Shown piece by piece: positions 17,711-52,219 of a stretch of DNA of 64,000 nt. The stretch comes from Acidimicrobiia bacterium (GTDB lineage Bacteria; Actinomycetota; Acidimicrobiia; Acidimicrobiales; Bin134). The notes beneath the pieces were generated by a model. That model was given only the letters and a program-made list of their open reading frames with translations, was not told where the DNA came from and ran no database searches. How positions within the stretch are numbered: the stretch's first letter is position 1; the number at the start of each line of letters is the position of its first letter. Where the stretch lies: assembly GCA_022819825.1 (NCBI GenBank), contig JAJEGM010000038.1, positions 1 through 64,000 on the forward strand. Reading direction: 5' to 3'. A program made the position numbers and the translations under genes.

Positions 17711-19449
17711 CGGCTTCTCAGTGCCGCGGTGGCCTCCGGGTCCACCTCCCCGGTTTCCAGGTCGACCACCACCCCGTAGTCCCGGCGGGCGGCCTCGGGC
17801 GAGACCCTGCCGTCTCGCACATCGGCGGCCACCAGATCGGGGTCGCGTTCATACGGGTCTCCGAAGCCGCCGCCCGCCGAGGTGAGCATGGTGATCATGT
17901 CCCCGGCTCGAAGGGGGTAGGCGGTTACCTTGGCCGGCAGCGTTTGCTCGTCGGAGGTGCCCTCATTCAAAATCCAGCCCCCGCCCGCGCCAGCAGAGCC
18001 GCCGTAGATGCCCGGTGGGGGGCGGCGGCAGCGATCGGTGGCCCGGCCGGTGAACTGGCCGTCTGCGAGGATGCGGATGTCGCGGCGCGCCCCAGTGCCG
18101 CCTCGCCACTGGCCTGGTCCCCCCGAGTCGGTCCACAGCTCGAAGCGCTCGAAACGCACTGGGTGCTCCTGCTCGTAAGCCTCCACGGTGTGGAACGCCC
18201 CGCCGGCGCCCAGCACCAGCGGGCCGGTCACATCCACCCCGTCACGGTCGGACCGGGCTCCAGAGCCGCCGAACTGGGGATCCATGAACGCCCACGGCCG
18301 GCCGTCGCCCCCGGTGCCGTTCATTATGTAGACGTGGACGTTGCAGGAAGCGGCCACCGCCCGGGCCGGGTCGAGCTGGGAGAACGCCCCCAACATCGCC
18401 TCCACCACCGCCATGACCGTGGCCATGCGGGCGTTGAGGGCGGCGGGCGGATTGGGATTCACCAGCGTGCCCGGGGGCAGGCGCAGCTCCAACGGCCGGA
18501 ACGCGCCGTCGTTCACCGGGATGTCAGGGGCCAGCAAGCAGCGCACGGCGAATAGCACCCCGGAGGTGGTCTGCGACACCGCGGCATTGATCGGCCCCGG
18601 TGCCTGGGGTGAGGTGCCCTGGAAGTCGGCGGTGATCGTGGAGCCCTTGATGGTGAGGGCGACGTGTACCTCGTGGTCGGCGTCAGGGTTCACGCCATCG
18701 TCGTCGATGATGAACGATCCGGTGTAGGTGCCGTCGGCCAGCGCCTCGATGCCCGCCCGGGTGCGCCGCTCGGTGTAGTCCAACAGCTCGTCGGTGATCT
18801 GGTGCAGCCGCTCGAGGCCGTAGCGGTCGGCCAGATCGGCCAGCCGGTCGGCGCCGAGGTTGGTGGCCGCCATCATGGCCCGGATGTCGCCCAGCACCTT
18901 CTCCGGGGTGCGGCTGTTGGCGGCGATCACATCCAGCATCGGCTGGTTGGGCTCCCCCGCGATCGAGAGTGGCACCGGGGGCAGCACCAGGCCCTCCTGG
19001 AACATCTCGGTGGCGTTGGCCGGCAGGCCGCCGGCGGCCATGCCTCCCAAGTCAGCCACGTGCAGCAGAGCGCAGGTGAAAAACGCCAGGTTGTCGCTTA
19101 TGAACACCGGTCGGAACACCATCACGTCGTTGGAGTGGATGCCGCCCCGATAGGGGTCGTTGGAGGCATAGACGTCGCCGTCGGCCATTCCCGAGGGTGG
19201 GAAGTCGTCCAGCAGGGAGCGCAGCGACGGTCGCAAACTGGACAAGTGCATCAGGGGAGCGCCCATCGACTGGGCGATGAACTGGCCCCGATGGTCGAAG
19301 ATCGCCGCGGTGGAATCCCCCCCTTCTTTGACCACCGAGGAGTAGGCCGATCGCACCGTGGTCAGCCCCATCTCCTCGGCGATGGCCCCCAAAGCGTTCT
19401 TGACTACCTCCAGCGCGATGGGATCAGAGGGCTGCCCGTCGGTGGTCAA
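17707..19449 (-). CDS. hyuB: Hydantoinase/oxoprolinase family protein, subunit B (HyuB)
   Basis: A 580-residue HyuB subunit of usual length. Family signatures include SVVKEGGDSTAAIFD, the DPYRGGIHSNDVMVF stretch and the Gly-rich GGTGARRDIRI and GGFGDPYERDP parts near the end. It forms the catalytic partner of HyuA. ATG 19449 overlaps the stop of the upstream SDR by four bases, and its own stop overlaps the hyuA start by four, so all three are translationally coupled. Confidence 0.88.
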   Translation of the reverse strand: MTTDGQPSDPIALEVVKNALGAIAEEMGLTTVRSAYSSVVKEGGDSTAAIFDHRGQFIAQSMGAPLMHLSSLRPSLRSLLDDFPPSGMADGDVYASNDPYRGGIHSNDVMVFRPVFISDNLAFFTCALLHVADLGGMAAGGLPANATEMFQEGLVLPPVPLSIAGEPNQPMLDVIAANSRTPEKVLGDIRAMMAATNLGADRLADLADRYGLERLHQITDELLDYTERRTRAGIEALADGTYTGSFIIDDDGVNPDADHEVHVALTIKGSTITADFQGTSPQAPGPINAAVSQTTSGVLFAVRCLLAPDIPVNDGAFRPLELRLPPGTLVNPNPPAALNARMATVMAVVEAMLGAFSQLDPARAVAASCNVHVYIMNGTGGDGRPWAFMDPQFGGSGARSDRDGVDVTGPLVLGAGGAFHTVEAYEQEHPVRFERFELWTDSGGPGQWRGGTGARRDIRILADGQFTGRATDRCRRPPPGIYGGSAGAGGGWILNEGTSDEQTLPAKVTAYPLRAGDMITMLTSAGGGFGDPYERDPDLVAADVRDGRVSPEAARRDYGVVVDLETGEVDPEATAALRSR

Positions 19450-50608: not shown

Positions 50609-51670
50609 TCATCCCACCACGACTACTCCGGGATCGCTTGCGGAGACCTCACCGATCACGGCGGCAGCGTGGCCTGCGGCTATCAGTCGGGCCACCGCTT
50701 CGGCGGCCGCGGCCGGTGGACAGCAAAACAGCAGGCCGCCGGAGGTCTGGGCGTCGGCCAGCATGGTCAAAGTCCGCTGGTCGTCTGATCCTCGCACCCA
50801 CGGACGCACGTGGTCGAGGTTGCGAGCCGTTCCACCGGGGGCAAACCCTTGATCCAGCATCTCCCAGACGTCGGGGAGCAGTGGCACCTCTTCTGCTCGG
50901 ATCACCGCACCAACACCGCTGGCGGTAGCCAGCTTCTGGAGGTGGCCGAGCAAGCCGAAGCCGGTGATGTCGGTGGCCGCCGTGGCCTTGGCCTCGAGGG
51001 CGGTCGAGGCAGCTTCGTCGTTCAGTCGGGTCATCTCGGCCACTCCCGCGGCGTAGGCCTCCGCCAGCCAACCGCCGGGCTCGATCGCCTCGGGCCCAGA
51101 GCGCTTGACCGCGGTGGCCAAGAGTCCAGTGCCCAGCGGCTTGGTCAGCACCAGCGACTGTCCCGGCTGGGCGCCGGCGTTGGTCAGCAAGCTCTCCTCA
51201 TCGGCCTCCCCGGTGACGGCTTGGCCGTACATCGGCTCAGGTCCGTCCACCGTGTGACCCCCGACCACTGCCCAGCCGCCGTCGGCGGCCGCCGCGGCCC
51301 CGCCCGCCAGCACATCGGTGAGAACCTCCAGCGGAAGATCTCCATGGGGCCATGCCACCAGGTTCAGTCCGAACCGGGGGGTGCCGCCCATGGCGTAGAC
51401 ATCCGAGGCCGCGTTTGTGGCCGCGATGCGCCCCCAAGTGTGAGGGTCGTCCACCACCGGCGCGAAGAAATCGGCGGTCGAGATCAGGGCGCGGCCTTCC
51501 CCGATGCGCCACACTGCGGCGTCATCACCGGTCTCTGTGCCCACGATCAAGTCCTCGTGGGTCGGGGTTGGCAGTGCGCGCACGACCTGCGCCAACTCGG
51601 ACGGTCCGAGCTTGCCGGCTCAACCGGCGCCGTGGGAGTAAGCCGTGAGCCTCCCTGTCTTCGGATTCAC
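50609..51670 (-). CDS. selD: Selenide, water dikinase (selenophosphate synthetase) with in-frame TGA, probable selenoprotein
   Basis: SelD makes selenophosphate from selenide and ATP for selenocysteine and 2-selenouridine. From GTG 51670 the frame reads VNPKTGRLTAYSHGAG, then TGA (51622-51620), then AGKLGPSELAQVVRAL and a complete SelD body with TGDDAAVW, ATDITGFGLLGH and SGGLLFCCPP. The TGA falls at residue 17, where active SelD proteins have Cys or Sec in SHGAGC/U. Total 353 codons, near the usual 350. Starting downstream of the TGA (TTG 51595) would remove the active site. No other stop interrupts the frame. Sequencing error or pseudogene is the alternative. Confidence 0.88.
51594..51622 (-). 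promoter_or_regulatory. TGA selenocysteine codon and candidate SECIS hairpin in selD
   Basis: Nine bases after the TGA (51622-51620) the message can fold into AGCTCGGA / TCCGAGTT, eight pairs (one G-U) around a CCG loop, at 51612-51594. A hairpin just 3' of the UGA is where bacterial SECIS elements lie. After a mismatch the stem can extend by two pairs. The SECIS loop is smaller than the E. coli fdhF one, so this is a candidate only. Confidence 0.55.
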
Positions 51671-51677
51671 GTGTCCG

Positions 51678-51715
51678 ACGCTACCGGGCCGTCGCTGGTT
51701 GAGGTGGGTTAGCTT
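51678..51715. promoter_or_regulatory. Divergent -10 boxes between selD and the SnoaL-like gene
   Basis: On the minus strand TAGCGT (51683-51678) ends seven bases before the selD GTG. On the plus strand TAGCTT (51710-51715) ends six bases before the GTG at 51722. Both fit the short-leader TAnnnT pattern of this window. The gap of 51 bases leaves no room for Shine-Dalgarno sites of normal kind. Confidence 0.4.
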
Positions 51716-51721
51716 TGCGGC

Positions 51722-52219
51722 GTGAATTCACACGAGCAAGCAGTGCGATCGATCAAGGCGCTTATGTACGTCTATGCCGAATGCGTGGACTTGGCCCGCT
51801 TCGACGAGCTTGGCGAGCTCTTCGCCCACGGAGTGCTCACCTCCACCAGCTCGGCCGACCCCGACGACGGCATGTCGGGCGATGACGTCGCCGCGTTCTA
51901 CGCGGCCACCAACAAAGTCCACGGCGACGGCACACTGCGCACCCGGCATGTGGCTAGCAACGTGATCGTCGATGTTGCCGACGACGGGCAGACAGCCACC
52001 GCCCGCTCGTACTTCGCCGTCCACCAGGGCACAGATACCCTGGCCCTTCAGCCCATCGTGGCGGGCCGCTACGAAGACGACTTCTCCCTGGTCGATGGAC
52101 AGTGGCGTTTCGCCCGCCGGATGGTGATTGTCGACCAGATTGGCGATATGCGAGAGCACCTCACCTTCGACCTGTCCGAGGGAGACGTGCGCTATACCGA
52201 CCATGTGGAGTCGGGATGA
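51722..52219 (+). CDS. SnoaL-like (NTF2-fold) protein
   Basis: A 165-residue protein starting with GTG. KALMYVYAECVDLARFDELGELF, TRHVASNVIVDV and GQWRFARRMVIVD are typical of the NTF2-fold SnoaL group. A related protein is at 46633, with low similarity. It may be a small enzyme of ring or side-chain metabolism, or have no catalytic role. Its TGA overlaps the ATG of the next gene by four bases. Confidence 0.8.
   Translation: MNSHEQAVRSIKALMYVYAECVDLARFDELGELFAHGVLTSTSSADPDDGMSGDDVAAFYAATNKVHGDGTLRTRHVASNVIVDVADDGQTATARSYFAVHQGTDTLALQPIVAGRYEDDFSLVDGQWRFARRMVIVDQIGDMREHLTFDLSEGDVRYTDHVESG

Follow-up and report, generated by a model that had tools for sequence, protein, structure and literature searches.

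The selD frame and its in-frame TGA

The window, the whole 64-kb stretch of DNA analysed here, carries on its reverse strand a selD gene for selenide, water dikinase, whose frame contains an internal TGA followed closely by two hairpins. The features that concern us are these:

50609–51670, reverse strand: coding region of selD, for selenide, water dikinase; starts at a GTG and has 353 residues and a terminal TGA stop at 50611–50609
51620–51622, reverse strand: in-frame TGA, predicted selenocysteine (Sec) codon 17, aligned to Cys17 of 3u0o
51611–51637, reverse strand: active-site motif SHGAG-U-AGK, with Gly in place of E. coli Cys19
51594–51612, reverse strand: upstream (proximal) hairpin, stable, weakly covarying, outside the bacterial SECIS model
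51593–51595, reverse strand: TTG, the start for gene callers without Sec support, giving a product 25 residues shorter from which the catalytic residue is gone
51577–51593, reverse strand: candidate SECIS (distal) hairpin, stem of nucleotides 30–35 with 41–46 counted from the T of the TGA, loop GGUCG at 36–40

From the GTG at 51670 the frame is interrupted only by the TGA at 51622–51620 (reverse strand), which falls at residue 17 within SHGAG-U-AGKLGP. When this codon is read through, the product matches TIGR00476 with 361 bits over profile positions 1–310 of 311 (cut-off 125), a full-length match that places it in the SelD equivalog family and bears out the initial annotation, which had described an otherwise complete SelD frame broken at this residue. 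Both AIRS domains, N-terminal (PF00586) and C-terminal (PF02769), are recognized in the product. Among solved structures the best relative is 3u0o, a selenide, water dikinase that we take to be the E. coli enzyme, and the alignment sets residue 17 of the query on its Cys17, presumably the catalytic residue, as the initial annotation had proposed for E. coli SelD. The gene therefore shows one of the marks expected of a selenoprotein, an in-frame UGA opposite the catalytic Cys of homologues.

Gene callers lacking Sec support had been expected to start at TTG 51595, and the mechanical ORF list does exactly this; the resulting ORF scores 332 bits against TIGR00476 and begins only at profile position 31. 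Annotation from this start drops the catalytic residue, which the Sec reading restores. The position of the GTG start is identical in all ten genus sequences read, and the roughly ten residues that precede the TGA are conserved among the Sec genes of the order as RLT-x-F/Y-SHGAG. A second intact selD, on which the original proposal could have foundered, did not appear in the genome: apart from this gene, the selD model finds a single match there, of 22 bits against the cut-off of 125.

The position of E. coli Cys19 (window 51614–51616) is variable, with Cys in 47, Gly in 14 and Ala in two (L052, L099) of the 63 Sec genes read from the order. Gly occupies it in the genus of the window genome and in L035, L085, L092 and L100.

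Codon 17 across the order

The sample of the order comprised 298 genomes, 180 of which have selD. Among the 150 selD matches listed, 109 carry one internal TGA and 41 carry none, so that Sec-SelD is commoner than the Cys form among the matches listed for the order (109/150). Among these same matches, selA (E 1e-60) was found in 104 of the 109 genomes with a TGA-containing selD and in 35 of the 41 without. In the genus, each of the ten genomes with a listed selD match, that of the window included, has one in-frame TGA, and two of them are single-contig assemblies; an eleventh genus genome, G282, whose selD is broken into two pieces, lies outside the listed matches.

We then read 91 selD genes (that of the window and sets of 30 and 60 loci), covering the genus, many families and the rows without a TGA. 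The reading pattern required U or C at codon 17 and every gene fitted it, with TGA in 63, TGC in 24 and TGT in 4 (28 Cys genes in all), although these proportions are not those of a sample because the genes were picked for coverage. The comparison of orthologues suggested in the initial annotation thus returned Cys or Sec at position 17 in 91 of 91 genes, and the 63 Sec genes are spread over 25 family codes of the order.

On a protein tree that excluded the active site and the SECIS codons, made by a quick method with SH-aLRT support only, the Sec/Cys state requires four changes, at least three of which are forced by starred branches. Four Cys genes (L041, L046, L072 and L105) fall within the Sec clade, the pattern that changes from Sec to Cys would leave. 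L072, with TGT at codon 17, still forms five of the six distal hairpin pairs around a GGTCG loop and may therefore hold a SECIS remnant, whereas L041, L046 and L105 form only three to four pairs. Such repeated swaps between Sec and Cys, with loss of the hairpin, amount to a natural experiment on what a SECIS requires.

The order also holds a separate second SelD lineage (L104 and L106–L120), which has the motif CGGCAAKW and Cys in all 16 genes read. The six named selD genes nearest to that of the window are 54–63% identical to it; four are labelled as Acidimicrobiaceae, Acidimicrobiales or Acidimicrobiia drafts, one as Nitriliruptoraceae and one only as "bacterium". The host thus most likely belongs to Acidimicrobiia, in Actinomycetota.

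Two hairpins behind the TGA

The hairpin at 51612–51594 to which the initial annotation had drawn attention exists, but it follows the TGA by seven bases and not by nine. It has an 8-bp stem and a 3-nt loop and folds with −10.4 kcal/mol (nucleotides 10–30). The bacterial SECIS consensus model given in PMC13188914 specifies a loop of 3–9 nt, an upper stem of 4–16 bp, a G within the first two loop positions, a UGA-loop spacing of 16–37 nt and a minimum free energy of at most −7.5 kcal/mol. The stem and energy of the proximal hairpin would pass, but its loop, CCG, lacks a G in the first two positions and its spacing is 15 nt against the 16–37 allowed. Changes mapped on the tree comprise 6 double, 26 single and 64 to or from an unpaired state, compared with 0–4 doubles in slid controls. 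The helix forms 435 of 504 pairs against a mean of 350 under synonymous recoding (sd 8.3, maximum 375; random synonymous codons, 500 draws), a pair count above the null without clear compensation. Since it departs from the model and covaries only weakly, we rejected the proximal hairpin as the SECIS, the role that the initial annotation had implied for it; the hairpin that does fit is the next one, at 51593–51577, and the proximal one may serve as a spacer.

The distal hairpin presents its GGUCG loop 32 nt past the TGA and folds with −8.3 kcal/mol (nucleotides 28–48), agreeing with the same model in stem, loop, G, spacing and energy. In the window's own sequence five of the six aligned pairs form, the outermost (30–46) being an unpaired G-G. 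Across 61 distinct Sec sequences in a gapless alignment, the six distal pairs are intact in 98.1% of cells compared with 85.9% for the proximal hairpin, and the RNAalifold consensus retains the complete set of six for the distal stem but just three pairs of the proximal one. The distal helix has undergone 14 pair-keeping double changes on the tree, with 11 single changes and 7 to or from an unpaired state, whereas controls with partners slid by 1–3 positions give 0–2 doubles. Its pair count in the 63 Sec genes is 369 of 378, far above the mean of 230 under the same synonymous-recoding null (sd 7.8, maximum 254).

This hairpin also follows the identity of codon 17. Among the order's 63 Sec genes, 59 (the exceptions being L036, L077, L091 and L097) passed a test that asked for a contiguous stem of at least 4 and a G within the first two loop places; of its 28 Cys genes, 1 passed. 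In a set of 80 loci from named genomes, from which L187 was dropped as it begins behind the site, 30 of 36 Sec genes and none of 43 Cys genes passed; L142, L171, L192, L193, L195 and L197 failed in the same register. The 30 passing genes come from Actinomycetota (12), Gemmatimonadota (4), Fidelibacterota (3), Verrucomicrobiota (2), Bacillota (2) and four other phyla with one each, together with three records without a phylum. A search of 51300–51900 against Rfam at E values up to 10 gave three matches, all far under their gathering scores. The SECIS is placed here by covariation and not by one single fold, and we regard 51593–51577 as the candidate SECIS to which SelB is predicted to bind.

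Selenocysteine machinery and a second selenoprotein gene

The genome from which the window is drawn is a draft of 3.44 Mb in 57 contigs, estimated to be 91.5% complete. No tRNA gene was found within the 64-kb window, and the supposition that the Sec machinery must lie elsewhere proved correct, as selA, selB and tRNA-Sec were all located on other contigs. A profile search places selA on contig C43 (400 bits), with selB (277 bits; SelB-wing_3 and SelB beta-barrel domains) immediately behind it, and tRNA-Sec with anticodon TCA on contig C22 (67.5 bits). SelA, SelB and tRNA-Sec therefore all occur in one genome with the TGA-containing selD, as a selenoprotein would require.

Since C22 is only 3.9 kb long its binning is open to doubt, a concern countered by its similarity to contig C27 of the relative G201. 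The first 2.7 kb of C22 is 93.9% identical to this contig over 2730 bases; C27 carries both tRNA-Sec (at 2663) and selA (at 17776), and C43 matches the same contig with 97.3% identity over 9.0 kb. In the genus, tRNA-Sec is above the cut-off in 17 of 22 genomes.

On C22 (L021, 2633–2724 onward) the likeness to G201 ends a few bases from the 3′ end of tRNA-Sec. The remainder of the contig, whose ORF gave no family match but shows a DPPY motif to the eye, may be an element integrated at selC.

The initial annotation had also suggested a search for other selenoproteins such as formate dehydrogenase, the only further one searched for, and the genome does encode a formate dehydrogenase alpha gene on contig C36 with a TGA in SCNRT-U-HAPSVVGL, which we take to be the usual Sec site of FdhA. 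This gene (G000 C36:247630–252174; L022, L029) looks split: one gene spans model positions 49–672 including the TGA and is followed by a NuoE/NuoF-like fusion, behind which the N-terminal part (positions 1–50) ends a separate 280-residue frame.

Relatives with a TGA-containing selD and no detected selA or selB

In 5 of the 109 genomes with a TGA-containing selD (among the matches listed), selA was not found even at E 0.001, a proportion that is, by estimate, roughly what draft incompleteness would give. One of the five, G063, is 78% complete and has a SelB wing and tRNA-Sec. The other four, G050 and G125 (family f50) and G261 and G242 (f33), are drafts of 90–96% completeness in which a SelB wing was not found at E 0.1. 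Their matches to the SelB model, at 199–205 bits, are under the cut-off of 242 and about level with the 195-bit second SelB match of the window genome, which we take to be a putative EF-Tu. Nevertheless, their selD genes (L221, L222, L223 and L088, respectively) form 6, 6, 5 and 5 of the six hairpin pairs, and each genome has a tRNA-Sec of 65.8–71.7 bits, on which ARAGORN agrees for G125, G242 and G261 (L214, L216 and L211).

Missing assembly is the likeliest cause of the gap in these four genomes; G092 and G199, relatives from the same families, have both selA and selB. Four of the five genomes in which selA was not found do cluster in two families, f33 and f50. That these sublineages lack a recognizable SelA and SelB and use another route of Sec synthesis and delivery is very improbable in our judgement; if true, it would be a property of relatives of the window genome and not of the window itself.

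Decoding of codon 17

Taken together, we conclude with a probability of about 0.97 that the gene encodes a Sec-containing SelD in which UGA-17 is decoded as Sec by way of SelB and the hairpin at 51593–51577. The wider proposal of the initial annotation, that this lineage encodes Sec and that SelD is a self-dependent selenoprotein, gains support from the machinery, the conservation of codon 17, the hairpin and the second selenoprotein gene.

One competing account takes the TGA as a true stop, leaving either a shorter SelD started at TTG 51595 or a decaying pseudogene. The TTG-started ORF is indeed open, scores well against the SelD profile and figures in the mechanical ORF list, but it would be made without the catalytic residue, and both a stop and decay are at odds with residues that are conserved ahead of the TGA, a codon 17 that is TGA or Cys in every one of the genes read, and a hairpin behind the TGA that is maintained through compensatory changes. 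We consider this account extremely unlikely. A little more weight, though still very little, is due to readthrough in which near-cognate decoding would place Cys or Trp at the UGA, with neither SelB nor a SECIS taking part. As the four Cys genes nested among Sec genes show, Cys is workable at the site, and the four relatives in which neither selA nor selB was detected would suit such a process. Plain readthrough has no need, however, of a covarying hairpin that Sec genes have and Cys genes almost entirely lack, and it does not account for the presence of selA in nearly all TGA-selD genomes among the matches listed, nor for the strong tRNA-Sec retained even in the four exceptions. Finally, since the window is drawn from a draft genome, the TGA might be a Cys codon misread in sequencing or assembly; a TGA common to the ten genus genomes with a listed selD match, two of them in a single contig, and to 63 of the 91 genes read, over 25 family codes, rules out a read error for practical purposes.

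In the preferred reading, decoding of UGA-17 as Sec, SelB carrying Sec-tRNA-Sec would bind the stem-loop at 51593–51577, 32 nt past UGA-17, and Sec would be inserted at the catalytic position, the counterpart of Cys17 in E. coli SelD. The enzyme would convert selenide and ATP to selenophosphate, which SelA would use to form the Sec-tRNA-Sec required for both formate dehydrogenase and SelD itself. Because codon 17 would be read as Sec, SelD would need its own product in order to be made, and its output may be tied to selenium supply. Both this dependence and the actual insertion of Sec at residue 17 are predicted from sequence.

Comparison with known systems

Sec-containing SelD is an established selenoprotein: the available excerpts of the literature describe it and FdhA as the two selenoproteins of widest distribution in bacteria (PMC1794560), rank it as the second most expansive prokaryotic selenoprotein family (PMC13188914), and give it 19% of the SelD genes found in a reference set, where structure search also recovered a bacterial SECIS of SelD (PMC4561486). 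Sec-to-Cys changes are documented for SelD (excerpts of PMC1794560 and PMC13188914), and deep-Sep, according to the part of its description available, routinely checks for Sec-containing SelD (PMC12013277). Selenium use in bacteria has been mapped by PMC5029168, in whose main text, as available, the term Acidimicrob- is absent, and in the limited collection of papers searched we found none that joins selenocysteine, selenoprotein and Acidimicrob-.

Compared with Sec-SelD as described in the excerpts of PMC1794560 and PMC4561486, the present case is alike in having Sec opposite E. coli Cys17, a single selD in the genome, the machinery and FdhA in one genome, and Cys genes inside the Sec clade. 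It differs from them in the Gly opposite E. coli Cys19, which is shared by the genus and four other genes. Set against the bacterial SECIS model given in PMC13188914, the window's own stem has 5 bp (6 in most relatives) and its loop 5 nt. Within the genome, formate dehydrogenase has its loop, GGUCU, 18 nt past the UGA in a single fold, whereas the selD loop lies 14 nt farther, with an extra hairpin between the UGA and the loop. Both genes thus offer a GGUC loop, at different distances from the UGA. Sec-SelD is well known in bacteria; here it is found in an environmental actinobacterial group.
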